Part shown: piece by piece, positions 6,647 to 39,324 of the stretch
Numbering within the stretch: position 1 is the first letter of the stretch
How the letters are laid out: each line of letters begins with the position of its first letter
IMG/VR virus record: IMGVR_UViG_3300025030_000219
Coordinates: 1 to 41,714 of that record
Strand: one strand, 5' to 3'
Origin: a virus
Length of the DNA: 41,714 nucleotides
The notes under the pieces: model-generated
The model's database searches: none
Told to the model about the DNA's origin: nothing
Seen by the model: the letters and a program-made list of their open reading frames with translations, nothing else
Made by a program: the position numbers and the translations under genes

Positions 6647-6886
6647 TTAGCTCCCCCCCCCGTGTTCTAGTCGGGTTAACTGTTCCCGCAAAGCAGCCAA
6701 AGCATTCTGATCCTGTTGCATGGCCAGATCCAACAACCCCCGGAGCTTTATTAGGTTCTCACGTTGAGCGTGTACCCTCTCTGGTGTGATGACCCGCTCA
6801 GACCTCTCCCCCCAGGTGCCCGGTTGAACTCCTAGTCGGATCAACAAGCGTTGAAGCTCCTCAAGACTGGGTTCAGGTTGGCTCAT
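6647..6886 (-). CDS. Small coiled-coil protein in the tail operon
   Basis: 79 aa, highly charged and helical, ending in GGGS. Residues about 35-72 have heptad spacing ('LIKLRGLLDLAMQQDQNALAALREQLTRLEH'), suggesting a coiled coil. The ATG overlaps the TGA of the 3837-aa gene in an ATGA, so translation is probably coupled to the giant gene. The gap to the next gene is only 3 bp. It may be a small assembly factor or a tail component for one of its two large neighbours; this is inferred only from position. No known family recognised. Confidence 0.55.
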   Translation of the reverse strand: MSQPEPSLEELQRLLIRLGVQPGTWGERSERVITPERVHAQRENLIKLRGLLDLAMQQDQNALAALREQLTRLEHGGGS

Positions 6887-12800: not shown

Positions 12801-15800
12801 CTTCATAGCCAGGGGGGGCAAAGTCTCTACCACGGCCCACCCAGAAACGGAACTTCCCATCCCGGTCCCCGACAAAGCCCCCGGAGATGGTTTCAAGGAT
12901 TTGCTCGAAAGAGACAATGGCCGTGTTGTAGAAGTCCAGGAAGGTTCTGGCCGCCCGATCTTTCGCCAGTAGGTGTTTTCGTTCGTAGAGTAAACCCACC
13001 CGACCTTGTTGCCAGTTATTCGTCCCACCCGTGGATGCTTTGAAAGCCCCGCCTGCGGGTTGTTTGGCAGTGATCTCCTGAATCGCTTCCTGAGTTGCCT
13101 CCACCAAGAAAGACCTGAGGGGTAAGGCTCGCCAATAAAACGTATCAGGGCTATTGAATGTATAGGTGGCTGTCAGCAACCCCCCCAGCAGACCATTACG
13201 CCCATCTGGGAGTGTGACGTGCAAGAAGTCCATGTAGACCCTTGGCAACACCACCACTCCATCCTGCCAGAAGGGTTTGATGGACCGGAGCCGAGTGAAA
13301 GACAAACTCAACCGTTGTCCCGGCCCAAGAGGGTCAATACCGGGGTCCAAGAGCCTGACCAAGCCGGTATCAGGATTCAGGTCATACTCGACCCCCTGAA
13401 TCAGTGTCCGACCAGGCTGTGCTTGACCCGAAGGATCAAGTTCCCCATAGAGCACCAGTTCGTAGCTCTCGCCTTGCAACACCGGTCCGCATCCCAGGAA
13501 TTCCCGAGCTTCCGGGGGATAGACAGGACGATAAGAGAGCTTGACAGTCGGCGGAGTAGACATCGTGAAAGCTGACTGGAAAGCAGAGGCTACGGAAATC
13601 TGGGAGCGGGTCCCATCTTCAGAAAGGGTGGTCTGAGTAACGGTGAACGGACACCCACCAACCTCCAGAATGTGTCCGGGAATGGCAAACTGGGTGAGGT
13701 CACCCAGAAACACAATCTCTTTCTGACCACGGTTTACAGGCTCAAAGGGGAACACGGAGGTGTCAATCACGGACATGAACCCGGCGGGGGCCGTTGTGAC
13801 TACCGGGGTAGACCCATCCGGGTCTACCACCGTCGTGATAGGGGCCGCCGTGATGAGGGTTATGACATCATTGCCCGGAGATCGAGTGCCTTCTTCGATC
13901 ACGGTCGGGGGGAAGATGCCAACCGATGTGACATCTCCCTTTTGAACCTGAACCCGAACCTTCTGGTGCCCAACCTTCTGGATTTCCTCTACCATCCGAG
14001 AAGGATAGTAGGTCAGACTCTTGATGTAGTGGCAGATCTCTCCCAATCGGATCATCTGTCCGGGGGTGAATTCTGCCACTCGATTCCCACGCAAACCAAA
14101 CCGATCTTGGGCGGCCTTGATGTAGAAAGGTGGCCGATAGGCTGGCTTCTGACTGCCCTCATAGGCTCTCTCCCCACCCCGAGCCTCATAGACGGCATAG
14201 TTAACCGTGACCTTGACGTATGTCGGAATGTCCCGATAGAACTTAATTCGACCTGCGCCCCCAAGAGCCGGGGGATAGTCCACAGTGCAATCCACACGTC
14301 CCCCGATGTTTTGCATCGTGGCCCCGCTGTAGATCACGGGATCAATGGACTGGTCCACGGTATCCAGAGCCGTGTTGAACTGATAGGTGTTTGCTGATAT
14401 CTGGGTGGCAACATCCCCCCGAATGGACACCGGGAGAAACTCCACGATCTGCGCGCCTATCTTGCGACCCTCCAAATCGGCTCGCCAGTATCGCACCTCA
14501 ACCACAGACCCCCGTGTCAGGGGTGAGTGGAAAGCGAAAGCACAGAGCAGCGGATTCAAACCGACATCCTGCTGTTGCTCCGTGACCATTTGCTCGACGA
14601 AATACAGCCGCTGCCCTGCCTGGGCAACCATGTCTGCTGCTGACAGGTTCAGGCTCCCATCCCTGGGGTTGTACTCAGCCTGGCCCGCCAGCAATACAGC
14701 AGGGTCCAGGAATTCTTCCACGTACCAAACCCGAGAAGCGGTCATGGCAGATAGGACCGTAGTTCCGAACTTCAGTCGTCCCTGTGGGACAAGAACCCCA
14801 CCCACGAGGACATCTGCCAACAGATACTCGATCCCGTTTCCACCTCCGGGGTCTGGACTGAAGACGTTGACCCCCGTAAGGCCAGCCCCGTGTTGGAGCA
14901 GTTGTGTTCCCACTCGGATCGAGAAATTCTGACCGGCCCATCGAAGAACATCGGTGGTAGGCACCTCCAACGAATCATTCGCCAGAGTGCCTAGATTCTG
15001 TTGTTCTAATCCTGTCAGGGTAGCCCAGGTTCCTGTGACCTCCTGAACTAACCCAAACCGCAAAGTGATTGTGCGCCCACTAGCCAAAGCCTCGGTCATG
15101 TCCGCCACGGGCCGGTTTGCCGTTTGGGCTGCGGCATCGGCTGGAACAACACCCACTAGGGCCAGGATCTGAACCTGGAAAGGTTCATCGAGGAGATGGT
15201 TGAACCCCTTGTAAATCTGATCCGCGACTACCCGTGGGTCATATACCGCTTGGGTGTATCCGGCATAGAGTTCCCAAGTGACCGGTTGTGGGGTCGAAAG
15301 GAGAAACACCGGCTGAACCGTGATGGTCGTACCGCCACCCGAAACCACATCATAGGAGCCAACAAGATCTCCAGAGGTGATTTTGAGTCGGTTGCCCGAA
15401 GTTGCTGGGAAATTGGCAAAGGGATCTGTGAACACCCCGGACCCGGCTACACACGTTCCGGATCCCCCATAGATTAAGCGTTCGCCGAGCCGCTCGATGA
15501 GCAGAGCTTGGCCAGGAGTCCCCCTCTCGGGGAGAATATAGTCTGTCTCGGGATCCTGAAACTGGAAAGCCCCGCCGGTTTGGGCCAGATAGAGACCCCC
15601 ACCTATTCCCGGTGCTCCCAACATAGACTCGGCTACCACCCCGGCTGTTCCGAACCCGAGAGTCATAGTGGGTTTCTCAATGGTATCTGCCTGAGTTGTG
15701 CGCTCGACCCAATCGAACTTCTTCTGCTCGAACCGATGGATCACATCGACATAGTGTTGAAGCGGCTTGATGAGAGTCTGAATGGACTCTCCCTGGATGA

Positions 15801-18396
15801 TCTGGGTGACCAGGTTGAAGAACACTCCGTCATCCACTCCGGCGATGTCCTGAAGTGGTGGGGGATTCATAAACACAAAGGGGGATGGCTGAATGCTCTC
15901 CTGAAGAACCGCTCCTTCCACTCGGTCACGGGCCGCAAAATCCGGGGTCGCCTCTGACCGATCCAGATTCGTAGGACTCCGGAACAATCCTAGAGACACA
16001 CCCGAATCAGGAAGCCATGTGGGTATCCCTCCAACCACTCTCCAACCTGGAATGAACCCAAGTATGGCTGCCCCCCGAAGGTCCACTATGGAAACGGCCC
16101 CAAAGCCAATTTCCACACTCCCTGTTGCTATGTTCCCGGCAGATATCACGATCCGTCCGGCAACCTCAGTGACTCGGATGCCAGGCAGAGCCGGAACCGT
16201 ATCTGCCTGAATGCTTGCAGCCACTTCAGCAGCCGTGAAATATGCCTGAGTAGGGTTGAGCACCGTCAATGAGAAAGCGTCCCAGGCATAGGCCACACCA
16301 TCTATGGCATAGTAGAGAATCTGGTCGCCTTGAATCCCAGTGAATCGGAAGATGTCTCGACTCTTTGACCAGAGCCGAGCAACATTGGTATAGACCGCCG
16401 GAACCAACTCGGCCTGAAGGAAATAGAGATTGTCCCCCTGGAAGCGTTTGATGTCCGCAGACCCAATGACGATTCGGGAACCGGGATCGCCCGCCAATCT
16501 CTGACGAGTCACATACGCCTGACCCCGTCGAACCCGGAACAGATAATCAGGAAGGTCTGTCTCCCGATCCACCGGAGTCACTGTGTCACAGGCTCCTTTA
16601 CGGGAAAACACGATCAGGTCTCCGATGCCCGTTTGAGCCTGTCGGACTCGACCTGTGTTCTGTGTGATCAGAAGCAGGTCATCCCCACCAGGTCGGACAC
16701 TTCCGGGTGTGCCTCCCAAGATGGGAATTGCCCCGGTGCCATCAGGAGCTTCCAGAATGCCTGATACCCCGAGTCCCCGGTATGGGGTCAGAGGACTACC
16801 AAGCACGAAGTCAGTAGGGAGATACTGGGAGTCTGGGACATATAGATTGATATCCGTGCCCATGACGGCTGTGTTCCCAGCCGCATTGACAACGGCTACC
16901 GGACCCCGAGTCGGTTGGGGCACCTGATTCAGAGCCACCCCGTCATAGACCACCACCTCCCCAAGGAAATGCTTGTTGAACAGTGGGGACTGATAGTCCG
17001 ACCGGTCCAGGTCGGCTTGGTTGAACAGCAGTCGTCCCGTGGAAAGGGCTACCACTACCTCGCCTGAGTTCGGAACAATTGCCCCCAGAGCAACCTCAGT
17101 GTCCACCAACCGAGGTTGAAGGTATCGTCTGGATCCAAATCTGATGAATGGGTAGTCCGTTGGTCCGGGAATGGGGGCAAGGAACAAAGGTGTCTGAAAG
17201 GCATCCGCCATCAACCCGAGTACCCCGGTCTCAGTAGCCGAGAAACCCTTGTAGACGTACCAGACCATCTTGCCAGCATGGATCTTCACGAACTCCGGGT
17301 TGAACAACAGACGACCACTGGTTTGTCCCACCACAGCATTGACCGTGGGATCCACACCGAAGTCATAGGCACTTGCCACATCGACATCGGCCTTTACCCG
17401 GATGTTGTCTACTCCGACGCTGAAGATGGCCCCAGGAGCCGTCCCAACTCGAATCAAGGCATACTGATCGGGCACTGCCGAGTCGCCAGGTAACAAAGCA
17501 TTGATGGGCAGATTCTTGAGTTTCGGATTGAGCAAATAGACCGTGTCGAACAGCAACTGGCCCAAGTTCTTCGGAGCAGATCCCTTGTAGGGTGCCCAGC
17601 GTTGAAGCGACCCATCCCAACCGAAACGAGTCTCATACCTGTCGTTGCGGGTCCACCAAAACTTCGAGGAGGCCACGGTATAACGCACGATGATGATCTG
17701 GTCGGCCCGTTGTTGGGACAAGCCCCCACCCAGAGCCGTCAGAACTTGCTGAGCCGAACCTACAGGGGTCAGGGTAGTTCGGGTGAGTCTAACCAAGCCT
17801 GCATCGGCATCCTGGTCTACTGGGGTCAAGAGAACCACCATGTAAGGCTTGGTTCCCTGACGCCCAGCGGCCGGGTTATCCTCTGCAACCCAGCCGTCGT
17901 CATCGTAATCGTCCACGTCCCCACGGGCGATAACCAGAACCAGGATTGTCCCCAGACTCCGATCTCCGTCATCCGTGACTATCAGATGGTCGGTTCCATC
18001 CGTGAACGTCCCATAGGTGGCAGGAAGAGGAACCCCAGGCGGGGGTGCCAGAGGTGTGAGATCTTGGACAACCAGGGTGCCTTGTGGAATGACCCCCTCC
18101 CCGTCCTCAGACCACCATACAGGGTTGTCCACCAAAGCCAGATTGGACGTGTTCTGTGCCCAAACCAGATACTCTGTAGGGGATGTTCCAGGAGCCTCAA
18201 TGACTGCCGTTCGATACTGATCAGCGGCGGTATCCAGCAGTACCGGCTCCGGCCCATTCGCCAAGGTCCGGGTATAAATTGCAGGAATCCGACGACAATC
18301 TCGGATCACACCCGTCGCAGGTTCACCCGTTGTTGGGCGGTTGACTGGAGGAATCCGAGATCCCTGAAGCACGCTACCTGAAAAATCAAAGCCCAT
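6883..18396 (-). CDS. Giant 3837-residue virion protein, probably baseplate or tail-tip
   Basis: An uninterrupted 11.5-kb frame from an ATG at 18394-18396; a GGGAGGG stretch lies about 10 nt upstream. The protein is mostly short beta segments rich in Gly, Pro, Val and Asp, as in multi-domain tail proteins, with no clear signal peptide, membrane helix or coiled coil. Residues about 700-790 hold an 'AAEVAASIQ ... GRIVISAG ... GAAILGF' module also present in the gp25-like protein. Similar phrases recur ('GRLLFNPEFV' and 'GRLLFNQADL'; three 'YKGF' segments), suggesting internal duplication. The last 250 residues are more helical and basic. It lies between the spike region and the wedge genes, where tail proteins are expected. 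It could be a very large wedge protein, a fibre anchor or an adhesin; no family was recognised. Confidence 0.75.
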   Translation of the reverse strand: MGFDFSGSVLQGSRIPPVNRPTTGEPATGVIRDCRRIPAIYTRTLANGPEPVLLDTAADQYRTAVIEAPGTSPTEYLVWAQNTSNLALVDNPVWWSEDGEGVIPQGTLVVQDLTPLAPPPGVPLPATYGTFTDGTDHLIVTDDGDRSLGTILVLVIARGDVDDYDDDGWVAEDNPAAGRQGTKPYMVVLLTPVDQDADAGLVRLTRTTLTPVGSAQQVLTALGGGLSQQRADQIIIVRYTVASSKFWWTRNDRYETRFGWDGSLQRWAPYKGSAPKNLGQLLFDTVYLLNPKLKNLPINALLPGDSAVPDQYALIRVGTAPGAIFSVGVDNIRVKADVDVASAYDFGVDPTVNAVVGQTSGRLLFNPEFVKIHAGKMVWYVYKGFSATETGVLGLMADAFQTPLFLAPIPGPTDYPFIRFGSRRYLQPRLVDTEVALGAIVPNSGEVVVALSTGRLLFNQADLDRSDYQSPLFNKHFLGEVVVYDGVALNQVPQPTRGPVAVVNAAGNTAVMGTDINLYVPDSQYLPTDFVLGSPLTPYRGLGVSGILEAPDGTGAIPILGGTPGSVRPGGDDLLLITQNTGRVRQAQTGIGDLIVFSRKGACDTVTPVDRETDLPDYLFRVRRGQAYVTRQRLAGDPGSRIVIGSADIKRFQGDNLYFLQAELVPAVYTNVARLWSKSRDIFRFTGIQGDQILYYAIDGVAYAWDAFSLTVLNPTQAYFTAAEVAASIQADTVPALPGIRVTEVAGRIVISAGNIATGSVEIGFGAVSIVDLRGAAILGFIPGWRVVGGIPTWLPDSGVSLGLFRSPTNLDRSEATPDFAARDRVEGAVLQESIQPSPFVFMNPPPLQDIAGVDDGVFFNLVTQIIQGESIQTLIKPLQHYVDVIHRFEQKKFDWVERTTQADTIEKPTMTLGFGTAGVVAESMLGAPGIGGGLYLAQTGGAFQFQDPETDYILPERGTPGQALLIERLGERLIYGGSGTCVAGSGVFTDPFANFPATSGNRLKITSGDLVGSYDVVSGGGTTITVQPVFLLSTPQPVTWELYAGYTQAVYDPRVVADQIYKGFNHLLDEPFQVQILALVGVVPADAAAQTANRPVADMTEALASGRTITLRFGLVQEVTGTWATLTGLEQQNLGTLANDSLEVPTTDVLRWAGQNFSIRVGTQLLQHGAGLTGVNVFSPDPGGGNGIEYLLADVLVGGVLVPQGRLKFGTTVLSAMTASRVWYVEEFLDPAVLLAGQAEYNPRDGSLNLSAADMVAQAGQRLYFVEQMVTEQQQDVGLNPLLCAFAFHSPLTRGSVVEVRYWRADLEGRKIGAQIVEFLPVSIRGDVATQISANTYQFNTALDTVDQSIDPVIYSGATMQNIGGRVDCTVDYPPALGGAGRIKFYRDIPTYVKVTVNYAVYEARGGERAYEGSQKPAYRPPFYIKAAQDRFGLRGNRVAEFTPGQMIRLGEICHYIKSLTYYPSRMVEEIQKVGHQKVRVQVQKGDVTSVGIFPPTVIEEGTRSPGNDVITLITAAPITTVVDPDGSTPVVTTAPAGFMSVIDTSVFPFEPVNRGQKEIVFLGDLTQFAIPGHILEVGGCPFTVTQTTLSEDGTRSQISVASAFQSAFTMSTPPTVKLSYRPVYPPEAREFLGCGPVLQGESYELVLYGELDPSGQAQPGRTLIQGVEYDLNPDTGLVRLLDPGIDPLGPGQRLSLSFTRLRSIKPFWQDGVVVLPRVYMDFLHVTLPDGRNGLLGGLLTATYTFNSPDTFYWRALPLRSFLVEATQEAIQEITAKQPAGGAFKASTGGTNNWQQGRVGLLYERKHLLAKDRAARTFLDFYNTAIVSFEQILETISGGFVGDRDGKFRFWVGRGRDFAPPGYEDDVTGNLNPRFVWGDVFLAAFNVAQPGLSYQPVQADALVNPGSLTLTDGEVDGDILGSNWMDQAQSQQKQRVQNDVDDIVLIGPGRIWFTFQLTLPFFKMHMKGRYLRMGGLQRYSRLFPTTTHAFFRTFPGAGADIPAGDVGVYTWGRVIDGEDQKTSGRAIGQLANPVLGAIENVQEAALLRRRARGRIWGYFPNGIPAGAFLNGASVAIVGPCVVVLPALFSEVDINPVTGYPDETTLLGSGFGTGEEPSATGGDPTLAVPSFQPGDQVFWGQPDGKVYKGFTPELVNILGRSTYTGLFVRDVQYGCAIRFQTSAGAAINDPDLVLVGTTTASGTPAHLFPIEQGDTLFAVAPILIASGTIDPTVAMTPQQLATLTAGSDIYRSGFDVKIVGDGRVVDTTLPSFQDPSFFGLREMFGQNPPDPMGSVEGSVEFLYTSQSPLLVPALEGKYQDDSGDYQIPYMKISNTELDRFAQVSEEIAEVMAAESPAGAGPPFPTSAVYPDEVLAIDGSVVPAINPALGFLGSEPATLLTLQDMAPNTPPARGVTDLRRYDLLFVETSTGAGPFSTGGGPTPGPQGIWSVGDVSVVVQGSRLEPPRFVTRTLQSSPIRYVAENALAYTMGQYPAQPQLVVPPPPGVRVYEDLALGRTVLDFTSVGQIALNDGTGVGVGNFNDIWSLVPPRSNNIITIRLYARRDVDIVNGPLGPNPLPSAGAGGELALTIQIQGATVTVTDYQGFVLVSPPVPAIVYGTSEAPPDPVWVNNREIIISQTGFMPWGFGPPNQWFLPHALVLPWRREMLYGFEFTVSIDTDVAATGESVTAWVDEDRLTFHEDIDFRLAKRRGYVHPQSGIPFQTQLTIENITVGYTVGLSTWSDVLRYSNGLFGGFPIPFTFLARSTAPDADSPGIWAGLPGEGSLKVMAFEGHGNIPITGVQAHLSAAPSNERNEAGTICSGWGFTASKFELGAPGNEIVDDRVLQPTVGAGAVANVQHGDVLVISQGRNAAHPSTAKAGSYLVRHAVERTNIGASDHYRATAPNCYAGQDTGWAPFAFPKVVVYDPATWTLTITNFEVPNGFVHPGGTSGFGLPPGRVFILCDLTTLNDPVLATAQQSVIGAIYTAFTVVGTTAVLTLNPLAMFDAVGPIVAGVFAGLIQPGMQVSGMTRFPVNVSGEILGLPRNNCVAYDEALDNSVRGFRWLTFRGPTESVVHPAPGYVELSGAPGGGIQIVPAPGVVVPAYQPRQSNHQFILDELQPVYDRVVRSLDLYLTAAQWRVLNIPFGSALDGAGGSFVCLLPNTRFQLADNTGVVGHYAQAGVFLEPSVPRAALNLTEAYARVVDGNPAGGPDHSLPDPSPPMNDEDREIGMRELFRYTGLAVPEEVEFAIRRIRRFHDANTEASQNLIPLRFAYEIRRGRVSAYSTSRQKGLVTAANFTMNWEATKPAGTRAKAQDVWNDLTGPHNGTNLRPFDNADVNINPGDLFRLLDKEGQVVDEVEIESIQAGDQIRLAVPGLQATPDAGTYVGMRFEVWLRQAPVPHEQSNEQLLNLITDREVFRTDADWDPASPDYQKGGWVRDIIGGGAYSAAVNRLRDDLNAAGGVGGFTFGARGVQKGDIVLVDPLGWVPLDGLLPAPPEQGLRQFGDDGVAIRAPLFVAGGPSALDDNRGFYRVLKVDDTDALSPALVVNPETTFTGGAANVVFDPADPLRAYAVYPTVTASGLSGGIEGQMDLRPTRLRDPVTESFVQYQDLLTNYHSIRPFSYRVIRPSGLFSDEAIDLVLSTRERMLTLIEKLKGVMLGRKGGRYYIFQKDRHIHSLGIPTNPEVGWGLFTNALVENLLGHVETAPFLNCSDTISLLDRRVWILDTRLDSLMPDPGPPPDPLRMVRLVPPALAYTAYTDLVAGVLIRPVLPDRVNEVLDVSDLFRPVRYTWLNYRVHLTLGTLAGIERFDRELPERLAEQKRLLLLRETASRT

Positions 18397-19037: not shown

Positions 19038-21476
19038 TCAAGGAGTAATGATGTGTCCCTTCGCCCCGATACCCCAAGTCCCGAATGGCAAATTCGTAAA
19101 AGGTTCAAGGCTGCCAGCACAGAGTATGGGTCCGGAATCCGGACCGTAGATCGGGCCACTAAGAAAAACCCCGAGTGCGCCTCGCAACGTAGCCGTCCCC
19201 GCCAGAGCCGCCACCGTCACTCCGGCCAGACCGGTCATGTTGGCCGTTCCAGCAACAGCACTCAGACTGACCGTCCCCAGCAGAGCCGTGCCAGAGAGCC
19301 CTGTAGGGGAAAGCTCCAAGGTATTCACCAAGGCTTGAGCTTTCCAGAACCCAAGCAACGTCTTGTATGTCATGTTCCCGATCAGGATGCTGGTGCTGTG
19401 GCTCCCAAGATTGAACTTCTCCTCTCGGTCTCCCATCACATAGGTCACCTTCTCACAGGTGAACCCGGGATAGAACGGAACATAGGTTCGTTCATGTAGG
19501 GGGAAGTTGGTGGGTAGGAGATACTGCGGTCCCCCAAAGGATTCCTGTCGTTGACCGTTGACCGTGATGGTCATTTGCTCGGTAGATAGGGAGAGTTTAT
19601 GCACCCCATCCACTGCCACATCTTCATGTCCAGTGATCCGAACTGAAGTAGCGTCTACGACCGCTTCGGCAGCCTTCACCAAGACCTGTTTAGCCGCTCT
19701 GATTCGGGCGTTTGTCTTGGCTTCGATGTCCACTGCGGGAAGGTCAGTCTCTCCTCGTCCGGTCCCACTGAGTCTGGTACTCATGGTTTCGGCGTCCTTC
19801 AGAGGGCCACCGCCATATATCTTGACCGGCCCATCGGGGGCTGTGATAGACACACTGCCCTTACTCCGGGATCCTAGTTCGAGATGGCCGTCCATCAGCA
19901 ACTTGAACTCGCCACCAACCCCCAGTTTGAGCCCCCCTGCCAGGTAGACCTCAAGTGAATTCTCTTTCACGGGTCCACCGATAGAAGCCTTCAATTGACC
20001 CTGTTTGTTCACCGACCACCAGGTTTCGGCAGCGTCCGTCGGGAACGGGGAGGTCAATCGAAACAAGGTTGCGGCATGTTCCTTCAGGGGGGTGGGTTCT
20101 ACTGCCGATTTTGCCGACTGAATGTTGGCAGGTTCCAATCGAGGTGAGGGTTGATCCCCATCGAAAACAACGGCCCTCAAGGGAAGGGCATACTTCTTCT
20201 TGCCCTCCGGACTGAAAGGATCGTTACCAACCACCGACCCCATCACCCATTCGATAAAGGGGGCGTTGGGGGGCAACCCAAGAGGGGTGGTTCCCTGATC
20301 CTGTTTAGGAAGCCGATCCGCATCGAACATGTCAGTCTGCTCGGTCACGGGCAATGTGCCATCCGACGTGTGGCAAACCTCAACTCGATACTCGGTCAAA
20401 GTAGCCGCATCTGGAGACAGAACCGCATTCTCTGTACTCAGGGCAGCCACCCTGAAAAGGGGCTTGCCCCCATAGGTGGCTGTGGGAGCTACCCGTGGGT
20501 CTATGACGAACCCCCGTTCGTCGATGAGACCCCCCCAACGAAGGAAGGTGTAAGGATCCAAATAGGGATCATTCCCGAGGTATGACCGACTCAGATTCCC
20601 CTTGTTGGCGGACAACCGTTTTCGTTGAAGCATGATGGCCGGAGACAAGAATCCTTCTGGTTGATTTTGGTCTGGCGGTAGCAGTCCGTCATCCAGGGGC
20701 ACTCCTGCGGTGCCTTGAAGAGGGCCATCCCAGATCTGTCCGTCTGACACCATCATCACGGGAAGGGTCAGGGCATCTCGTTGAACCATGCCTGCATACG
20801 TTCTGGCCCCGGCCAAGGCATGGAACTCCTGAAGGGCACGCACAACCGCCGCTTGATCCTGATCCCGCAGACGAAACTCGTTTCCTCTCCGGTTGGATAG
20901 GAGAACACCCTCATCCAACACCAGGTCGGCTCCTTGGGAAGAAGAAGCCAGGATGCCTCCAGGATGCAAATGCCGGAGTTTGTGCCGGACACGGGTGTAA
21001 GCCCCCTCGGTAATAGTCCGAGTCTTGGGGTCATCCATGTCACATTCGTCCACCTCGAAATCGGCCGTGGTCATCCATTCTCGACCAGGCCAAACACCGG
21101 GCACGGTCCAAGCCAGAATCACGGGCGACTTGGTGGTTGTCTTGCCGCTTTCTTGGCTCATCCACCCCACGATGCAGTAGTCCCCAATCTCGGGCATGGC
21201 TCCCAGGAAATGTCTGACTCCGGCTCCGGGGAAGGTCAGAGGAACCGGGACACGCTCAAACATCTCAGAGGTTCCAGAAAGGGTCCGCAGAGTGACGAAG
21301 AACTCCTCGTAGTTGATGTTGACGACCTTGGCCACCCCGAGATCCCCAGAAAGGCCAGGGTCCATCCTCTTCAGGTCCGCACGGGCCTTCTCCGTCGAGG
21401 CCATCATCTGACCATGGGAGGTCGCCTCTGAACTTCTCACGGGGCGACGATTGACCTGAGTGTCCGGAGTTCTCAT
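19038..21476 (-). CDS. Baseplate central spike protein (gp5/gpV/VgrG-like)
   Basis: 812 aa. Residues about 48-130 ('AKVVNINYEEFFVTLRTL ... PEIGDYCIVGWM') match the OB-fold of the gp5/gpV/VgrG spike family. From about residue 490 short alternating beta repeats occur ('GGLKLGVGGEFKLLMDGHLE', 'SVSITAPDGPVKIYG'), as in the triple-stranded beta-helix of membrane-piercing spikes. Residues about 735-780 are a run of 'AGTANMTGLAGV'-type turns. In the family, a trimer sits below the hub and punctures the cell envelope. The ATG overlaps the hub stop in an ATGA, matching the usual hub-spike pairing. T4 gp5 carries a lysozyme domain; none is seen here. A peptidase-like domain lies in the hub instead. Confidence 0.75.
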   Translation of the reverse strand: MRTPDTQVNRRPVRSSEATSHGQMMASTEKARADLKRMDPGLSGDLGVAKVVNINYEEFFVTLRTLSGTSEMFERVPVPLTFPGAGVRHFLGAMPEIGDYCIVGWMSQESGKTTTKSPVILAWTVPGVWPGREWMTTADFEVDECDMDDPKTRTITEGAYTRVRHKLRHLHPGGILASSSQGADLVLDEGVLLSNRRGNEFRLRDQDQAAVVRALQEFHALAGARTYAGMVQRDALTLPVMMVSDGQIWDGPLQGTAGVPLDDGLLPPDQNQPEGFLSPAIMLQRKRLSANKGNLSRSYLGNDPYLDPYTFLRWGGLIDERGFVIDPRVAPTATYGGKPLFRVAALSTENAVLSPDAATLTEYRVEVCHTSDGTLPVTEQTDMFDADRLPKQDQGTTPLGLPPNAPFIEWVMGSVVGNDPFSPEGKKKYALPLRAVVFDGDQPSPRLEPANIQSAKSAVEPTPLKEHAATLFRLTSPFPTDAAETWWSVNKQGQLKASIGGPVKENSLEVYLAGGLKLGVGGEFKLLMDGHLELGSRSKGSVSITAPDGPVKIYGGGPLKDAETMSTRLSGTGRGETDLPAVDIEAKTNARIRAAKQVLVKAAEAVVDATSVRITGHEDVAVDGVHKLSLSTEQMTITVNGQRQESFGGPQYLLPTNFPLHERTYVPFYPGFTCEKVTYVMGDREEKFNLGSHSTSILIGNMTYKTLLGFWKAQALVNTLELSPTGLSGTALLGTVSLSAVAGTANMTGLAGVTVAALAGTATLRGALGVFLSGPIYGPDSGPILCAGSLEPFTNLPFGTWGIGAKGHIITP

Positions 21477-24400
21477 TCTTCCTCGCCTATATTGGACCCC
21501 GCAGTCTCAGCCCTGGCATATCCTGCTTCAACATTGGCCAAGGCAGCCTGATACTGAGCCTGGGCCTGTTTGAAAGCATCCCCCTCGAACACTCCAAGGG
21601 TTGTTTTAACAACACTGCTCTCCGACCGATCCTGAGCATGGCCACGCAAAGCCTCTTGACTCTGTTGCCAAACGGCTGAGGCAGACATGACTCCTGACAT
21701 GAGAACCTGAGTGATCGGACTGATCTGGCCAGTGCCATATCCCTGAGGTATTTGGCCGCCCGGGGCTAGTTGAACGAAACTATGTTGTCCCGCCTGTGCC
21801 AATAACACATCCGCTTCGGCGGCTCTACACGAACAAACCTCTTGAGTTGAATGGGCTGTCAGATTGGCCAGAGACAGCCCGGCGTTGATAATGGGGAGCT
21901 TCTGGACACCGTCAGTGGACTGGTCGGCGATCCAGTTCCGTAGCTTCAGATGCAAGATGTTCGGGTTGCCATCTTCGGCCTCAGCCCAACCTGCATCCAG
22001 AATCTGTTTGTCCGTATAGCTCTGCTGGAGTTGTTTGATGACTTCTTTTTCCGTTTCTGTGTATGCCGCTGTTACGGTCATCGAGCCAGCATCCGCTGGC
22101 TTGGAAGATTGAACTCCCGAAGCCCCGGTCGGTCCGTTCTGTATCATGTTGAGAGGAATCTCATGCTTGGTGTAGAGAGTCACCAGGTTTTCAGCCGTTT
22201 GTCGGTCCAGAACAGACAGGGGGTGTACACGACGCAGAGAATCCCATACGCCCTCGGCATCAATGTCCACCCCTCGCCCATAACGGTATGTGCCCACCAC
22301 CTCATAACCACGGTTGTCAGAGACCGGGAACACAGCCGTTTGTGCCAGTTTAGTCTGAGGCTTTTGTTTCGAGACTTTGGCCTTGGTTTTTCCCAATGCC
22401 TTTGCACCACGAGTGGCCGCCATAGCCTGATTGGCAGATGAGACAATCCCGGTGGTGGATTCCTTGGAGAGTTGCTTCGTGGTGAGGTTCTGTTGAAAAG
22501 TCTTCTCGGCCTGTTTGGATTGCTTGGCCGCGATCCGAGCTAGCGCCAGACCCGCTTCGAGAACCAACTCATCACGAGAAATCCCCGAATCAGAGGGCAC
22601 ACTAGCTTGAAGCTCTTCCCCCTCCGAGCTTGTAGCAACCGGGACTGGATCAGAACTTGCCAGACTGAGTGAATCTATGGGCACGGTCGTTGAAACACTC
22701 ACCCCCCGAACGGTCAATGCAGGCGGGAAAGCCCAGGCTTGGGGTAAGATCACGATCTGAGTTTGGTCTGGCGTCGAAGCCTGTTCCTTGGCTGCTGTCT
22801 GAGAAGTTCCCACACTGGCAGCTACCTCGTCATACCACTCCTTGTAGACATCTTGGATCGTGGTTCCACTTGTTTGCGGGATCGCTTTGGATCTGATCTC
22901 CGCACTGTAGGCCGCCACCAAAGAGGAGCCTAGTGTGTCTGTGTTCCCCCGTCGTTTGGTCGATGTGGCTTGGGTTGTTGCCCGAACCTTGGCCACAGAG
23001 AAAGCAAGCTCCATGATTTCACTGGTTGGGACCACTTGGCCGTCAGGAAAGGTAGGGTCACTGGTCAAAACCCGAATCCCCCGGACAGGCCGATGATCAT
23101 CCGTCAACACCGCATCAGGGATCATAGATCCGAGGAACGGAGCAAACACGGACCCAGCCGGAAGATACCCCCGAGTAGGTTGATTTGCCCAAGCACCACT
23201 CAGAGTCGCGGGCACAACCACGACCCCCTTCTCCCCAGTCTCCAGCCGCTCCGAGGAGGTCAACGTCAGATCAGGCGGACCTTGATGAAGGGGGTTGGGG
23301 TGGGCTGAGGAATAGTACCGATAGGTGCCGGGAAGGTCATTGTTACCGAACACGGCCTTCTTGTCTGACATCATGTCCAACAAGGACCGTGTAGAGTTCA
23401 GGTTTCCATAACTCCCTCGGGCACTCTGCTGGGTCAGATACTTCTGGCCTACCTTCTCGACTAAGGACAGGAGATAAGCCAACCCCGTTGTAGTATCCTG
23501 AGAGGTTTCGGCTCGAAAACTCTGACGGTCCTTTTCGCGTGCCCGGATTAGACCAACCCGTTTTTGATTGACTGTCTGGGCTTTGAGAGCAAGTGCATCC
23601 CACTGTTTCTCGTCCTCTTCCTTCGTGATATCCAGTCTTTTCATGCTGTTGTAGATGCTCGACAACTCGAAATCCACCTGGGCAATGGTTTCGTCCTTTT
23701 TCCCGATGTCTTTGGTGACCTCGGCCTGTTTAGCCATGTACTCATCAACTAACTCAGAAAGCTGTTTTGTCCCCAGAATCTTCCCTTGCTGGGCCTGTTC
23801 CGTAGTCTTCCCATCGGGAGCCTTTGGGCCTCCTAGAGCTTGTGGCTCAGATGGAGCTGTAGTCGCCCCGAACAGGAAACGGAACTTGTTGGGTGGGGTG
23901 CCTTCCTTAGTCCCTACCGGATTGTCTACTTCCATCACGTAGCTGCCAGAGGCTTCAACCTTCAACACCCCCAGGTCTTTCCCAAGTTCCAGGAGCCGCT
24001 TTTGTACCCCCGGATCATCCAGACGTTCTGCTTCCAACCCGATGACAAAAAACATCGGGTTGATGGCTTCTGGATCCAAAGCCATCACCACATTAGGGAA
24101 CCCGGACAACTTTGGCTGTCCCCCGCCATCCAGAACAGTCAGGGGCAGAGGAGGAAGGGAGACATCCGAAAGGTCAATATCGTCGATGCTCGGGTTCTTG
24201 CCGTCTCCCTTGATGACCCCAGGGGCATAGAACTTGGCCCGTTTGGCAATCATCTGGAGACTGGTCGTGCATTGACCGCCCACACTGAAGGAATGGGCAA
24301 AAGAAGGCACGTAGTAATAACAATCCAGATAGGGGATGTAGACCGGGTATCCAGGACGAATCTCTGGTCGAAGGGGAATGGTGGCCGACCCTGATTTCGT

Positions 24401-26689
24401 CGGGGCATTCATCAGATCCATTCGGTTCACAGCAGCATAGAAAACCGAGGCAGCATTGGTGAAATAGGAAGTCTCGAAGGATCCGGGTCGCCAACCGTAC
24501 TGAGCCACCAAGCGGTAGTCAATGTACTGACCCTGGATACCAAACTCGTTGTCTGTTCCCAACCCCTCCAGGTTCTGTTGAATGACTGCTCCGCTTTTCC
24601 CCGTCATGTAGGTCGCTTCAGGTTCCTTTTCCTCGAAACTGATGGAGATGATGTCGATGTCCTCTAGGCGATACACCCGCGATGAGGATGTGTCCAAGTT
24701 GAACATGGGCGGCTTGAACACGAAGTCGCCATCCACATCCTGATAGAACTCAAACCCAGTGACCTCACAAACCTGTTTAGCCACGTCGAGTTTGGATTGA
24801 TAGGTGCTCTCGAAAAGCTGGATCTGCCCCCATTGGGAAATGTCGGAGACAAAGGCAATCAACTCAGGCATGTTGAGTTCCAACTTGGAAGCTGTCGGGT
24901 TCTCCCCCTTTTGACTCGCCCGGATCCGCTTGGCCACCGTGAGTTTGTTCAACATGCTCAGGGATAGAATGGGGTTGGTGGACTTCGGGAATGCCTGACC
25001 GAACCGACTCCGCATGAGCTTGGTCAGTTCCATGCTGGACAACTGGGACAAAGCAATGGCCTCAGCCATGGAGAACAGTTCCCCGGTAGCTCCGTGGAAC
25101 CGGATCTTGTTCATCGTGGTTTTGAATCGGGCATCCCAGTATCTCATGGCCAAAGACCACAGGCTTTGCCCATTCAAAGGACTCACCGCAGCCGTGTTGG
25201 TCTTCTGAGAAAGTGCCCAGCCAACAGAACCTGCCGACCCCATCGTATCCTTGTAAAGCGTGTAGATGATCTCGTAGGGGTGCATCCCGGTGAAGTTGTC
25301 GCCCACCATTGACATCTTGAGTTTCGAGTTGGACGGGCGTGCCCCGAACAGCGAGGCATTCGTGTTCATTCGGTGGAACTGCCAGAAATGCAGCATGGAT
25401 GCACAAGACAAGGTAATGGTCCGCACACCTGCACTGTAGGAGTGACTGACCGAGATCACGACCCCATGAAACACATGGTAGTAAGGATAGGCCAAGAGGT
25501 TCTCGATGTCCTGACCTTGAAGTCCCAACTGTGCCAACTGAGAAGCTGAAGCCTGAATCTCAGTTCCCGGTGTATAGGGAGAAGCCTGTGTAGCCGCCAC
25601 CAGTTTCTCTTGGTTCAAGGCATCCCTGTTCGAGTTCACATCTGCCGGGTTCACTAAGGTGGGATCTGGCGCGGGCATTTCATCCCGAGCCACCTCTGCT
25701 GAAGCTGGAAGAACAGTCCCGGTCTTGATCTCAAGCCCCCCTGGAACCTCATACCAGATCCAGTCCGTATCCTGTCCGGATTGGTCATAGTGCGGGATAG
25801 AAACCCAGTTTGTAGGGGTGTAGTCAGCCGCGTTTGTTGATCCAGCCGTGGCCCCTGGGTTCAGAGTAGCCGCAAAGTAAGCCCCAGACCCACCTGGAGA
25901 CAGATACCCGGTTTCCCGTAGCTTCTGACCCATGGCCCAAGCTGTTACTCCTGGAACATCGGCTGTCCCACCCGAGGTGGTCTTGTAAGTAATCTTGTAA
26001 TCTATGGCATTACCCTGATAGTGTTGACTGTCTTCTGCATGTCCGGTGGTTTGATACCCCCCATTAGCCGAGGGGGCCACCGTGACACCTCCGGCATAGC
26101 CTGGTAGAGCACCATTTTGGCCTAACTGTTCTGCATACTGATGCAGGGTTTCCATGCTGTGAACGGTCTTTTGAAGATTGGCCTGGATCTCTGGTGAGAG
26201 ACTGTCTACGTTCACTCCACGGGTCAAGTCAGAGGGGGAATAGGAAGAGCCATTCGCTTTGGTTGGTCCCGCAGCCAGATTACCAAAAGCAGATGCGTCG
26301 GGTGTACTGGGCACAAAGTTCGCGGGGTCCACCAGATTCTGAGGGGCCGCCAGGTTTGAGTACATCCCCTTGACGGGGAAATAGCCCCGCATGTAGACAT
26401 GCACTTCCAACCCCGGATGGAACAAGAACTGGGCATCCCGAGCCACCGTGTCCACAGCATGAACTGGTAAGCTCAGGGTAATGGAAGCCTGTGCTGCCGC
26501 AGCGTCCACCCCTGAGTCTACTGATACTTCGGTGATGTACTTCTGAACCTCAACCCGTCCACTACACTTCGGACAACCCGGAAGGGTCAAGTCACCGTTC
26601 AAGTAGACCAATGCGTCCGGCGTATGCTGCACAAGACCCTTGCCATCCAAGGACCAGGTGCCAATAAAAGGGCGTTGCTCAATGCTCAC
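21473..26689 (-). CDS. Baseplate hub protein (gp27/gpD-like) with inserted M15-peptidase-like domain
   Basis: 1738 aa, from a GTG preceded by AGAGGTAGAAC. Residues 45-110 are a hub-type beta domain ('ITEVSVDSGVDAAAAQASIT', 'PGLEVHVYMRGYFPVKGMY') that appears to resume at about 400 ('YYHVFHGVVISVSHSYSAGV'). Between them, residues about 165-320 resemble a zinc D-Ala-D-Ala peptidase of the M15/hedgehog fold: S221-x-H223 and D230 fit the SxHxxGxAxD motif. The third zinc ligand is unclear, because the expected His in 'DWIWYEV' (309-315) is W312; H300 could substitute. Residues about 620-850 ('FYQDVDGDFVFKPP', 'RPGYPVYIPYLDCYYYVPSF') fit the gp27/gpD hub. The remaining half is coiled coil (about 1010-1100) and unassigned sequence. 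C39 and C42 form a CxxC pair. Hub call is strong; peptidase activity is uncertain. Confidence 0.75.
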   Translation of the reverse strand: MSIEQRPFIGTWSLDGKGLVQHTPDALVYLNGDLTLPGCPKCSGRVEVQKYITEVSVDSGVDAAAAQASITLSLPVHAVDTVARDAQFLFHPGLEVHVYMRGYFPVKGMYSNLAAPQNLVDPANFVPSTPDASAFGNLAAGPTKANGSSYSPSDLTRGVNVDSLSPEIQANLQKTVHSMETLHQYAEQLGQNGALPGYAGGVTVAPSANGGYQTTGHAEDSQHYQGNAIDYKITYKTTSGGTADVPGVTAWAMGQKLRETGYLSPGGSGAYFAATLNPGATAGSTNAADYTPTNWVSIPHYDQSGQDTDWIWYEVPGGLEIKTGTVLPASAEVARDEMPAPDPTLVNPADVNSNRDALNQEKLVAATQASPYTPGTEIQASASQLAQLGLQGQDIENLLAYPYYHVFHGVVISVSHSYSAGVRTITLSCASMLHFWQFHRMNTNASLFGARPSNSKLKMSMVGDNFTGMHPYEIIYTLYKDTMGSAGSVGWALSQKTNTAAVSPLNGQSLWSLAMRYWDARFKTTMNKIRFHGATGELFSMAEAIALSQLSSMELTKLMRSRFGQAFPKSTNPILSLSMLNKLTVAKRIRASQKGENPTASKLELNMPELIAFVSDISQWGQIQLFESTYQSKLDVAKQVCEVTGFEFYQDVDGDFVFKPPMFNLDTSSSRVYRLEDIDIISISFEEKEPEATYMTGKSGAVIQQNLEGLGTDNEFGIQGQYIDYRLVAQYGWRPGSFETSYFTNAASVFYAAVNRMDLMNAPTKSGSATIPLRPEIRPGYPVYIPYLDCYYYVPSFAHSFSVGGQCTTSLQMIAKRAKFYAPGVIKGDGKNPSIDDIDLSDVSLPPLPLTVLDGGGQPKLSGFPNVVMALDPEAINPMFFVIGLEAERLDDPGVQKRLLELGKDLGVLKVEASGSYVMEVDNPVGTKEGTPPNKFRFLFGATTAPSEPQALGGPKAPDGKTTEQAQQGKILGTKQLSELVDEYMAKQAEVTKDIGKKDETIAQVDFELSSIYNSMKRLDITKEEDEKQWDALALKAQTVNQKRVGLIRAREKDRQSFRAETSQDTTTGLAYLLSLVEKVGQKYLTQQSARGSYGNLNSTRSLLDMMSDKKAVFGNNDLPGTYRYYSSAHPNPLHQGPPDLTLTSSERLETGEKGVVVVPATLSGAWANQPTRGYLPAGSVFAPFLGSMIPDAVLTDDHRPVRGIRVLTSDPTFPDGQVVPTSEIMELAFSVAKVRATTQATSTKRRGNTDTLGSSLVAAYSAEIRSKAIPQTSGTTIQDVYKEWYDEVAASVGTSQTAAKEQASTPDQTQIVILPQAWAFPPALTVRGVSVSTTVPIDSLSLASSDPVPVATSSEGEELQASVPSDSGISRDELVLEAGLALARIAAKQSKQAEKTFQQNLTTKQLSKESTTGIVSSANQAMAATRGAKALGKTKAKVSKQKPQTKLAQTAVFPVSDNRGYEVVGTYRYGRGVDIDAEGVWDSLRRVHPLSVLDRQTAENLVTLYTKHEIPLNMIQNGPTGASGVQSSKPADAGSMTVTAAYTETEKEVIKQLQQSYTDKQILDAGWAEAEDGNPNILHLKLRNWIADQSTDGVQKLPIINAGLSLANLTAHSTQEVCSCRAAEADVLLAQAGQHSFVQLAPGGQIPQGYGTGQISPITQVLMSGVMSASAVWQQSQEALRGHAQDRSESSVVKTTLGVFEGDAFKQAQAQYQAALANVEAGYARAETAGSNIGEEE

Positions 26690-35691: not shown

Positions 35692-38223
35692 CTATAGAGC
35701 GGCCCAAAGCTGCTCTCGGGCGACCTTGGGGGTAGTGGCAGAGGTAACCAATTGGTCATAAAGACAGGACCAATTCCCAGCAATCCCATAGGAAGCAGCC
35801 CGCAACCGAGGAGCCAACCGCTGTATCAGAGCATGGTCCTTGGTGTTGGCAAAGCTCTCCAGGAAATCAGCCATCCGCCGCAAGTGGTTGGCATAGAGCC
35901 GAACAGCTCCGTTGACCTCAATCCAGAGTACCGCCAGGGCGAAGACCGCCGTCTTGACCAGCCGGGTATCAACATCCGAACCGGGAAGCCCCCCGTCTGC
36001 CTGAAGGGTGCCCAGGATGGAGAAAACGGCTTCGGTACTAGGAGCCACACCCAGGGTTCCAAAAGACACTTTTGCATGGACAGTCTGGATGTTCAGGTTA
36101 CCTGTAAGAGATTCATAGTCCACATCTGAATCGAAACCCATGCCCAGACTTTGTCCCGTGAGTCCTTTTGTCGTAGACTGACTGGACCTCCAAGGGCTAC
36201 GGGTTGGCAAGGCACTGTACGACAGGTTGCAGGAATACTGGGTCGGGTCCGGGGCGAAATCCATTGAAGCACTCAGCCTTGGGACCGAACCACACGAACG
36301 CAGCACACCATTGTTCATGCCCCAGAAATCTTGCCCCACCATCTCACCAGGCATTCCAACCGGAACCACCTGCTGCTGCATGGTTAGATCTGCCTGATCC
36401 CCAACCCGCTTGACCACAGCACTCAGACTCATCACCCGACTGGCGATCCCATAGAGAGTGGATATCTCCTTGAGTTCCGTCTCAAACAGCTTGCGAGAGG
36501 CTTCCGATCCCTGAGACATGTCCAGTGCCGAGTCCAGATCCGCCACCTTCCGACCTGCCCAAAGCAAGGCCATCAGACCATTTGCCGTAGGTTGAGGCAC
36601 CAAACCTAGAGCCTCCACGGTGCTTCCATCAGCTAGGGTAAACTCGATTCCGATAGGTATCGTCTCCCCCGTCTGACCATTATCCGTGATTAGGACAGGG
36701 CGTCCCTCCCATACAACCGGGACATGGTGGTCCTGAATCTGTGCCTTCTTCCCCTTGCCAAACAGGACCGCAGCCCTCACGAGTTCCTGTCGAGGTTGCC
36801 GAACTGCATTGAACAGTTCCATTCCGGCGGCTATGACATCCTCATTGGCCCCAACCATACGTTGAAGCCCCCCGGTTCGCCGGGCCAGAGAAGCCAGAAA
36901 ACGATCCTGACTGGCATCGCCAATGCCCAAAACATGGACCCTGGGCTTGGAAACAGCCATAGACTCGATAGCGAAACCAGTTCCTGCAACTTCTCCATCT
37001 GTAAGCAGGAAGATGTCCCCTGACTGGTTATTGAGGAGCTGAACTGCTTGGGCCAATGCCCCCTCCAATTCAGTGCCCCCGTCTGCCTGGATCCGGTCGA
37101 TGAACTGAAGGGCCGTGACCCGGTTGGCATCCGTGGCTTGAACCAAGGTTTCATGGAACAGAGTGGGTGTGTAATTGAAGGAAACCAGCCCGAACTCATC
37201 TGTCGGAGCCAGAGCCGAAAGGGCAGCTTTCAGGGCCACCTTCGCCCGTTCAATGCGAAGGTTCTGCATTGACAACGAACGGTCAAGAACGAAGACCACC
37301 TTGCGAGCAACACCAACAGCCTTGGGAAACACGTTAGACGGTACGGAAACCGTCCAACAAGGGGCATCCTTTGGAGTCTTGGGATCGTCAGGGGTTGTGA
37401 TCTTGGAAGTCAGAGCCTCGTCTGCGAACACCCCCGACACTGTTTCACGGGAACGGAGATCGATGACCAAATCACAGTTGGGCTTGCTACCGAGACCAGC
37501 CAGGGAGACCTCGGCAACCCCATCATCCCGAATACGGGTGGTAATCTGATGAGACGGGGAACCCACAGTGTCAATCTTGCCCATGCCCTCCAACGTGAGG
37601 TTGAAACTGACCTGGTGCAGCCCGAGTCCGGAGGGGTCTGACTTCCACTCGGGAAGGATAAGATCCCCAAACAGAGAAGCCGGAAGTTCGATCTTGCCTC
37701 CCTCTGGGGTCGCCGTCATCTTGGCTTGAGGATGGTAATTCGGGGCCAGCGTGAATGGAAACCGGAACCGGAAATCAGAATCCCGAGTGTCCACGGCAGC
37801 CACAACTTCCAGGATAATCTGGATCTCTTCACCGGGTCGGATCTGGCCAATGGTGAGGGTGACCATGCCGTCAGGGCAAACCTCGGCAAGCGAGGACAGG
37901 TGCCCCTTCTGAGTGTTCTCTTCGTATTCCTTGCGAGCTTCCTCACGGGGTTTCAAGGAGGACTCGACCTCGAACCCCTCACCCTTGATCTTGAAACGCC
38001 GGAGTGCCCCGTCCCGTGGAAGCATGAAGACATAGAGAGTCTCCAAGGGCTGGGTGGCATCCCCGGCGCACTGAAAGGCATGGGTCACCTGAAGCAAAGC
38101 TCCGGCAGGGGTTGCCTTTCCGGCCAGATGGAGCCGTTGCATGGCCAATTGCACAGCCTGATGAGTCTGGGCATTGACGATAGACCCGAACTGATGTTCC
38201 TGGACGAGATGGGCGAGACTCAT
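35692..38223 (-). CDS. VIT + von Willebrand factor A domain protein
   Basis: 843 aa. Residues about 20-150 form a VIT domain ('LYVFMLPRDGALRRFKIKGE', 'EARKEYEENTQKGHLSSLAE', 'LTIGQIRPGEEIQI'). Residues about 305-480 form a vWA domain with an intact MIDAS metal site: D314-x-S316-x-S318, T384 and D409. After it comes the 'LYGIASRVMSLSAVV' segment typical of VIT-vWA proteins. Residues about 610-740 are a Ser/Gly-rich linker, and the last 100 residues are helical. No signal peptide or membrane anchor is visible, so it is predicted cytosolic or virion-associated. In bacteria and animals the pair of domains binds proteins in a metal-dependent way. The ATG overlaps the stop of the MerR gene, with AGGAG 7 nt upstream. 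It is unusual in a phage, and its role is unknown. Confidence 0.85.
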   Translation of the reverse strand: MSLAHLVQEHQFGSIVNAQTHQAVQLAMQRLHLAGKATPAGALLQVTHAFQCAGDATQPLETLYVFMLPRDGALRRFKIKGEGFEVESSLKPREEARKEYEENTQKGHLSSLAEVCPDGMVTLTIGQIRPGEEIQIILEVVAAVDTRDSDFRFRFPFTLAPNYHPQAKMTATPEGGKIELPASLFGDLILPEWKSDPSGLGLHQVSFNLTLEGMGKIDTVGSPSHQITTRIRDDGVAEVSLAGLGSKPNCDLVIDLRSRETVSGVFADEALTSKITTPDDPKTPKDAPCWTVSVPSNVFPKAVGVARKVVFVLDRSLSMQNLRIERAKVALKAALSALAPTDEFGLVSFNYTPTLFHETLVQATDANRVTALQFIDRIQADGGTELEGALAQAVQLLNNQSGDIFLLTDGEVAGTGFAIESMAVSKPRVHVLGIGDASQDRFLASLARRTGGLQRMVGANEDVIAAGMELFNAVRQPRQELVRAAVLFGKGKKAQIQDHHVPVVWEGRPVLITDNGQTGETIPIGIEFTLADGSTVEALGLVPQPTANGLMALLWAGRKVADLDSALDMSQGSEASRKLFETELKEISTLYGIASRVMSLSAVVKRVGDQADLTMQQQVVPVGMPGEMVGQDFWGMNNGVLRSCGSVPRLSASMDFAPDPTQYSCNLSYSALPTRSPWRSSQSTTKGLTGQSLGMGFDSDVDYESLTGNLNIQTVHAKVSFGTLGVAPSTEAVFSILGTLQADGGLPGSDVDTRLVKTAVFALAVLWIEVNGAVRLYANHLRRMADFLESFANTKDHALIQRLAPRLRAASYGIAGNWSCLYDQLVTSATTPKVAREQLWAAL

Positions 38224-38711
38224 TCTGTTTCTCCTGTTTCTGATGGTGTCGGGTCAAGGGAAAGTTTCTTGATGCTCTCAAGGTTACCCATGCCGACGGC
38301 TGGCACGTCGTTTTCGGATTGGCTCCCGGCAAGACTTTTTGTGACAGTCTGAAGGAAAGCCTTCAGGGCCAAGCCGATCTGGCGCTCTTGAACCACAGAC
38401 CATGTGCGGGGCTGTACCTCAACCCGTACCGCTGGATGCGGACTAAAGACCAACCATGCTGCCCCCGACGTTTGAACATCAAAGGTGCGTCCTAGCAAGC
38501 GTGTCTTGAGGGCCCCCAAGGAAAAACCCTCAGACTGCAACCTCCGAATCTGCTGAAGCCTCTGACAATGCTCTTGGGTGTAGTGGGCATGTGGGCCTTG
38601 TTGGGTCGGACCCGGCAACAGCCCTTCGGCGATATACCATCGGATTGTTCGAGCACTGTAGCCTGTTTGTTGGGCCAACTCGATCAGGGTAAGCTCGGGA
38701 GCCACATCCAT
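38220..38711 (-). CDS. MerR-family transcriptional regulator
   Basis: 163 aa. Residues 7-75 are a MerR winged helix-turn-helix: 'LIELAQQTGYSARTIRWYIA' (helix-turn-helix), 'EGLLPGP' (wing) and 'HYTQEHCQRLQQIRRLQSEG' (second HTH part). The effector part, about 85-163, lacks the Cys ligands of metal-sensing MerR proteins and the long antiparallel helix is short; it ends in a Ser/Thr/Glu-rich tail. It is the first gene of an operon with the vWA gene and is transcribed divergently from the RNA-repair block, so it may control either or both. No stronger upstream start exists, and the predicted transcript begins at this ATG. Confidence 0.85.
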   Translation of the reverse strand: MDVAPELTLIELAQQTGYSARTIRWYIAEGLLPGPTQQGPHAHYTQEHCQRLQQIRRLQSEGFSLGALKTRLLGRTFDVQTSGAAWLVFSPHPAVRVEVQPRTWSVVQERQIGLALKAFLQTVTKSLAGSQSENDVPAVGMGNLESIKKLSLDPTPSETGETE

Positions 38712-39203: not shown

Positions 39204-39323
39204 ATGGACTCGGAAAAAACGTGCCCAGCAACCGATAGCAAGAATGAGCAGGTGGCCTACGTGGTTTGCCTCAACTGTACGTGGACCTACGAAGAGTGCC
39301 CCTACAACCCAAAGGAAAACTAA
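39204..39323 (+). CDS. 39-aa Cys-rich mini-protein
   Basis: An ATG at 39204 follows GCAGGAGGTGCTGAAA, an almost perfect ribosome-binding site. The product is acidic, with Cys at 7, 22, 25 and 32 ('VVCLNCTWTYEECPYNP'), which could bind one zinc. Its TAA is followed by one base and then the ATG of the RNA ligase, so the two are probably translated together. The good RBS and snug fit between neighbours support a real gene; function unknown. Confidence 0.65.
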   Translation: MDSEKTCPATDSKNEQVAYVVCLNCTWTYEECPYNPKEN

Positions 39324-39324
39324 A

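Follow-up and report, generated by a model that had tools for sequence, protein, structure and literature searches.

The tail lysozyme of phage T4 resides in gp5 and not in the hub. Hubs that themselves carry enzymes are already known, and in one of them the enzymes lie inside the barrel domain: the trimeric hub gp15 of cyanophage A-1(L) is interrupted near the N-terminus of its barrel by a lysozyme (residues 56-265) and an endoglucanase (266-430) and ends in a peptidase (736-899), and two of these domains, the endoglucanase and the peptidase, are lytic to host cells in vitro (PMC10966104). The diffocin hub-hydrolase CD1368 stays attached to the wedge until firing releases it; it joins a transglycosylase and an endopeptidase to a gp27-like hub, with the enzymes placed C-terminal to the hub (338-581) rather than inserted into it (PMC10996793). 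Deep-Blue Gp189 and Vp4 Gp110 are baseplate hubs as well; both are bacteriolytic in vitro and carry a peptidase domain, of the NlpC/P60 type, at the C-terminus (PMC11406892). A separate line of comparison is given by the M15A peptidases and the Hedgehog and BacHh proteins, in which an H-x6-D pair and a later His serve as zinc ligands (PMC3927764, PMC6027127, PMC8052667), namely H141, D148 and H183 of Sonic hedgehog (Shh) in mouse numbering, the human numbers being one lower (PMC6027127).

The stretch of DNA analysed here (the window) comprises an entire record, 41,714 bases long. It is probably a fragment of a large phage, judging from the relatives of its hub gene; these occupy 66 viral loci, among which there are copies of a single contig, and the contigs reach 536 kb. 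Among these relatives, the phage record LR745208 (485 kb) matches 60% of the hub protein and phage Tunturi_5, whose hub is annotated as 'tail protein with lysin activity', matches 12%; a search of plasmids for this hub returned none. The whole 1738-aa protein has no Pfam model at E 1 and a single PHROGs match, a family of unknown function at E 0.051. Residues 1-880 were modelled with AlphaFold2 from 33 sequences (mean pLDDT 71), and the model aligns to solved baseplate hubs over about residues 22-817, with Z scores of 24.6 for Milano (319 residues, 3.1 Å), 23.8 for VgrG1, 22.4 for Mu gp44, 19.6 for T4 gp27 (PDB 1k28; 309 residues, 3.4 Å), 19.4 for A-1(L) gp15 (PDB 8kea) and 18.4 for diffocin CD1368 (PDB 8v3w). 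By its predicted fold, which comprises the two beta domains of this family, the protein is a gp27-like baseplate hub.

In the hub model, a strand at residues 95-101 is followed by an extra domain and then by a strand at 403-419. Since these two strands flank the insert, and solved hubs align across it, the insert interrupts the first hub beta domain (Table 1), as the earlier note had proposed; the limits of about 165-320 given there proved too narrow. Modelled in isolation (residues 138-352, 15 sequences), the domain reaches a mean pLDDT of 90. The arrangement resembles A-1(L) gp15 in placing an enzyme-like domain inside the barrel domain. It differs in that A-1(L), a 68 kb phage, carries other enzymes, two in tandem, for which section 10 of PMC10966104 describes no exchange. 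The A-1(L) insert appears to begin about one strand before the position occupied here, as read from the translation of the record, in which the hub is split by a frame error.

Table 1 Features of the hub gene in the window (all on the minus strand)
Feature	Coordinates	Strand	Basis and remarks
Baseplate hub gene	21473..26689	-	GTG start, 1738 aa; open frame, gp27-like predicted fold of residues 1-880, relatives on 66 viral loci
Hub residues 1-112, N-terminal part of first beta domain	26354..26689	-	strands of the model as far as 95-101; conserved whether the slot is filled or empty
Slot 1, inserted domain with linkers, residues 113-400	25490..26353	-	8-38 aa in 52 hubs and 252-336 aa in 31, of 83 measured
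M15A/Hedgehog-like domain, residues 138-352	25634..26278	-	own model pLDDT 90; family alignment of 15; structural rows
SxHxxGxAxD, residues 221-230; predicted zinc ligands H223 (26021-26023) and D230 (26000-26002)	26000..26029	-	both invariant in 15/15
GxGxY, residues 267-271	25877..25891	-	G267, G269, Y271 invariant in 15/15
HxD, residues 300-302; H300 (25790-25792) predicted third zinc ligand, D302 invariant	25784..25792	-	15/15
W310-I311-W312, strand after HxD, not a metal position	25754..25762	-	W310 nearly invariant; model strand 310-315
Hub residues 401-880, remainder of first beta domain and second one	24050..25489	-	solved hubs align up to residue 817
Slot 2 position, residues 1138-1201, empty in window	23087..23278	-	63 aa here; 250-425 aa in 10/19 hubs aligned
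Slot 3 position, residues 1201-1462, empty in window	22304..23089	-	261 aa in the window, against 491 in L110 and 477 in L115

Sequence supports the relation of the inserted domain to the M15 peptidases, and the support from structure is weaker. Pfam and PHROGs give no match for the window domain itself; because it does not reach the Pfam cut-off for PF08291, we name it M15A-like and not a PF08291 member. In a database of 30 slot domains, it matches the 14 other M15-class domains (blastp E 5e-27 to 3e-4; 25-35% identity to the 14 aligned slot-1 domains) and none of the other classes at E 1e-3. The match to the domain of hub L009 has E 1.4e-18, and the L009 slot passes the Pfam cut-off for Peptidase_M15_3 (PF08291; E 2.1e-12, 47.6 bits versus 23.2). 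The slots of L024 and L026 pass that for HH_signal (24.1 and 26.7 bits versus 22.1), both being below the M15_3 cut-off, and L150, added later, fits the M15 profile at 1.1e-46 in a one-sequence search, with G at the A228 position. Searched against the PDB, the profile of the 15 domains retrieves Sonic hedgehog first (E 3.8e-5, positions 12-108 of 273), and the window domain alone retrieves marginal matches only, Desert hedgehog among them (E 1.2). Foldseek with the isolated domain gave nothing significant, the best hits having E 0.44 in the PDB and E 0.039 among viral models (a putative peptidoglycan-binding protein). The structural argument for an M15 fold comes only from realignment of the Foldseek candidates, in which the first 31 rows are all Hedgehog or M15 proteins, at modest Z scores of 5.8 to 4.0 over about 100 residues; the next, LdcB, which we take to be an M15 enzyme, has Z 3.0 and is tied with the first unrelated row. 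In scans that detect close relatives only, no M15 domain outside hubs was found with the window domain in phage records or in viral contigs, and L009 as a query found only its own contig.

The earlier note had read an SxHxxGxAxD motif with S221, H223 and D230 in this domain, and the motif is indeed present (SQHYQGNAID, with S221, H223, G226, A228 and D230). All 15 of the 15 aligned slot-1 domains share H223, G226, A228, D230, G267, G269, Y271, H300 and D302, and W310 is nearly invariant. The note had also supposed that W312 replaces the last His, leaving a site that is either degenerate or completed by H300. The family alignments place H300 ('PHYD') at the position of the last His, as the third ligand following the GxGxY strand, and align W310 with the nearly invariant Trp after HxD, thereby ruling out W312 as a replacement and favoring the second option. 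As far as the metal ligands go, degeneracy is not supported: judged by its conserved set of predicted ligands (H223, D230 and H300), the metal site does not look degenerate. The pattern H-x2-G-x-A-x-D, G-x-G-x-Y and H-x-D recurs in four domains of a second slot described below. In the structural rows, the aligned ranges end at model position 168 (hub residue 305) and Shh 187 for the Shh entry 6pjv, and at model position 167 and Ply500 137 for Ply500; if the range ends are ungapped, H300 would fall on Shh 182 and on Ply500 133, a correspondence read from ranges and not from a residue alignment. Position 133 of Ply500 is presumably its zinc ligand position. The case for an enzyme is weakest with regard to the catalytic acid. 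The 15-domain alignment shows no conserved Asp or Glu opposite Hedgehog E177, nor at the positions 3 and 6 residues ahead of H300; D302, which lies two residues beyond H300, is a candidate by conservation only. The window domain thus differs from M15A, Hedgehog and BacHh proteins in sitting inside a phage hub and in having no conserved equivalent of E177, and the Hedgehog calcium-site acids, as given in the list within PMC8052667, are likewise unmatched, the acidic stretches of Shh facing non-acidic consensus positions in the profile alignment.

We consider it likely that the window encodes the hub of a contractile-tailed, probably large phage, and that the insert, a zinc peptidase with the M15A/Hedgehog fold, is carried on the virion, cuts peptidoglycan and occupies an exchangeable slot. 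The reading that competes with this most directly keeps fold and metal site and gives up the enzyme, the domain binding peptidoglycan or stabilizing the hub, comparable to the 'pseudo-active' site of Sonic Hedgehog. It draws on the alignment, which shows no conserved general base, on the Hedgehog proteins being the best PDB profile matches, and on the Hedgehog site often being called pseudo-active (PMC8052667). We nevertheless regard it as improbable, given that the three ligands and GxGxY are invariant in 15/15 divergent domains and that members of enzyme families occupy the slot in other hubs.

Those occupants also bear on the substrate. Since M15-fold proteins are, as we infer, not tied to one substrate, a working peptidase could act on a surface-layer or envelope protein, or on a tail protein processed during assembly; with lysozyme, amidase, transglycosylase and glucosaminidase as the Pfam families found in slots 1 and 2, we hold this to be very improbable. 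Least credible of all is that the M15 likeness is a chance motif on a different fold. The window domain does lack a Pfam match and a significant Foldseek match, but its ligands are invariant in 15/15 domains, it directly matches L009, which passes the M15_3 cut-off, and the 31 best structural rows come from one superfamily. For the peptidoglycan-cutting peptidase that we prefer, we count the Pfam-recognized hydrolases in the same slot of relatives as evidence of a wall-cutting role, and the lytic hub domains of A-1(L) and the lytic hubs of Deep-Blue and Vp4 are published precedents.

To describe this slot, which the earlier note had not noticed, across relatives, we used 91 distinct hub sequences, drawn in part from the best 80 of 162 relatives, the new fragment L141 being left out. 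Slot 1 was measurable in 83 of the 91, its anchors not being found in eight, and its length falls into two groups, 8-38 aa (52/83) and 252-336 aa (31/83), with none intermediate. Pfam was run on 32 filled slots, comprising 30 distinct tree rows (L011 repeats L003), L150 and L151. The curated cut-off is passed by ten of them, with Phage_lysozyme2 in L017, L027, L105 and L106, Amidase_2 in L021 and L151, SLT in L023, M15_3 in L009 and HH_signal in L024 and L026. Of the 22 below the cut-off, window included, the M15 group accounts for 13 (L150 and 12 tree rows) and the Phage_lysozyme2 group for two (L014, L019); seven are unassigned (L012, L018, L020, L028, L029, L030 and L032). Profiles of slot classes A3, A4 and A5 and of L032 alone detect no solved relative at significant E, and the profile of L068, L120 and L121 does not detect L032; our working labels 'SleB-like' (A3), 'LysB' (A5) and 'Gluc?' (L032) express a presumed resemblance. 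By these comparisons, the slot 1 occupants are unrelated classes: M15-like, Phage_lysozyme2, Amidase_2, SLT and unassigned ones. The hubs of L150 (M15-type slot) and L151 (Amidase_2) lie on contigs binned as bacterial MAGs, that of L151 being titled Verrucomicrobiota; these are possibly prophages or misbinned phages and may hint at hosts.

At E 1e-3, slot domains match within their own class only, while the flanks of hubs of different class reach 80% identity (L006 or L008 versus L014), 79% (L003/L028) and 77% (L004/L012). L006 and L014 share 92% identity over the 60 residues preceding the slot, 28% within it (forced alignment) and 93% over the 60 that follow. On a hub tree of 52 flanks without the slot, built by a quick search with SH-aLRT as the only support measure, the eight content states require 17 changes, of which the empty state accounts for three, and the starred groups of mixed content include L010/L018, L027/L032 and L004+L009/L012. 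Because 17 lies between the possible minimum of 7 and the shuffled mean of 26.5, content is partly clustered and often replaced. Differences at fourfold sites are enriched in the slot for L024/L026 (37/126 versus 40/294 in the flanks, p 3e-4) and L006/L008 (46/63 versus 114/246, p 2e-4), which fits recombination of the slot or a local difference in rate. Slot dN/dS in three pairs is 0.15-0.31, above the flank values and well below 1, with dS saturated (>2) in two. At the level of these sequence comparisons, computation establishes both the slot and its exchange. Three hubs (L022, L034 and L040) have an empty slot 1 and normal length further on, yet are nested among filled hubs in the tree; in 15 proteins scanned for L034 and L040, no lysin was found.

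Two further loops, both empty in the window, hold long inserts in relatives. L068, the hub of LR745208, has an empty slot 1 and a Glucosaminidase at residues 1013-1135 (33.0 bits versus a cut-off of 30.2), and Pfam assigns the same family to L120 and L121, making three of the ten long slot 2 inserts seen among 19 hubs whose C-terminal parts were aligned. The M15 pattern is found in L125, L134, L138 and L146, three of which have sub-threshold M15 or endolysin matches and L138 none; among sequences outside its training set, the slot-1 M15 profile matches these four best (3e-5 to 2.5e-3, in a small database). The inserts of L035, L124 and L142 have no lysin match in Pfam or PHROGs, and a 'lysozyme-like' label for them was dropped on that ground. 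The slot 3 inserts of L110 and L115 give sub-threshold Muramidase matches (20.9 and 17.5 bits versus 22.3). Among hubs measured at both places, a long C-terminal insert occurs in one of 25 with slot 1 filled versus 13 of 30 with slot 1 empty (Fisher p 0.0013, which overstates exclusivity as the hub rows are related); 17 of these 30 are empty at both. A strict rule of one lysin per hub fails on L086, which has a filled slot 1 and a long later insert. In this sole exception among the 25, the extra stretch at about residues 1170-1830 has no Pfam match. A search for the tail lysin of phages empty at both places, covering 45 proteins (part of the frames, without the largest downstream ones) from seven slot-1-empty loci, gave one lysin domain at E 0.01 or better, the glucosaminidase of the L068 hub.

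Fusion to the hub implies that the window domain is carried in the virion. A hub trimer would set three copies of it around the tip of the tube, each hanging from a loop of the first hub beta domain, and the domain would be exposed when the tail fires. By analogy with diffocin and A-1(L), it would then cut peptide bonds of peptidoglycan, loosening the wall as the tail tube advances. The loop itself would be permissive, with peptidoglycan hydrolases of unrelated families having entered it by recombination in related phages. Within the window, the hub may be the sole visible wall-cutting part: 14 other proteins show no Pfam lysin domain, a scan that divergent lysins, like the window domain itself, could escape. 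The tail region also contains a 3837-aa open frame (6883-18396, minus strand) without a Pfam match at E 0.01. Elsewhere, the window encodes an 843-aa protein (35692-38223, minus) with VWA_3 (von Willebrand A; 4.7e-18) and VIT (1.3e-13) domains, to our knowledge unusual for a phage, an adjoining MerR-type regulator (38220-38711, minus; MerR_1 4.7e-16), and an RNA ligase with a PHA02142 OB-fold domain (39244-40428, plus; 1.6e-16 and 1.6e-12).

In the literature searched, we found no report of a Hedgehog-like M15 domain in a phage hub and no description of an exchangeable hub slot, bioRxiv and most subscription papers lying outside its coverage. What appears to be new is the occupation of one hub loop by unrelated hydrolases in turn, together with the use of two other loops in hubs whose first is empty. 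On balance, we lean towards viewing the hub as an exchangeable lysin socket, which as a rule carries one enzyme in one of three loops. The enzymes would come from six or more unrelated hydrolase families, and exchanging them would allow the tip of the tail to be refitted to the wall chemistry of the host without altering the rest of the baseplate. The slot is a naturally occurring place where contractile tails accept an enzyme. Since, in one hub family, the same loop is either empty or holds one of several unrelated wall-cutting enzymes in backbones that are up to 80% identical, wall chemistry as a limit to infection at the penetration step becomes directly testable.
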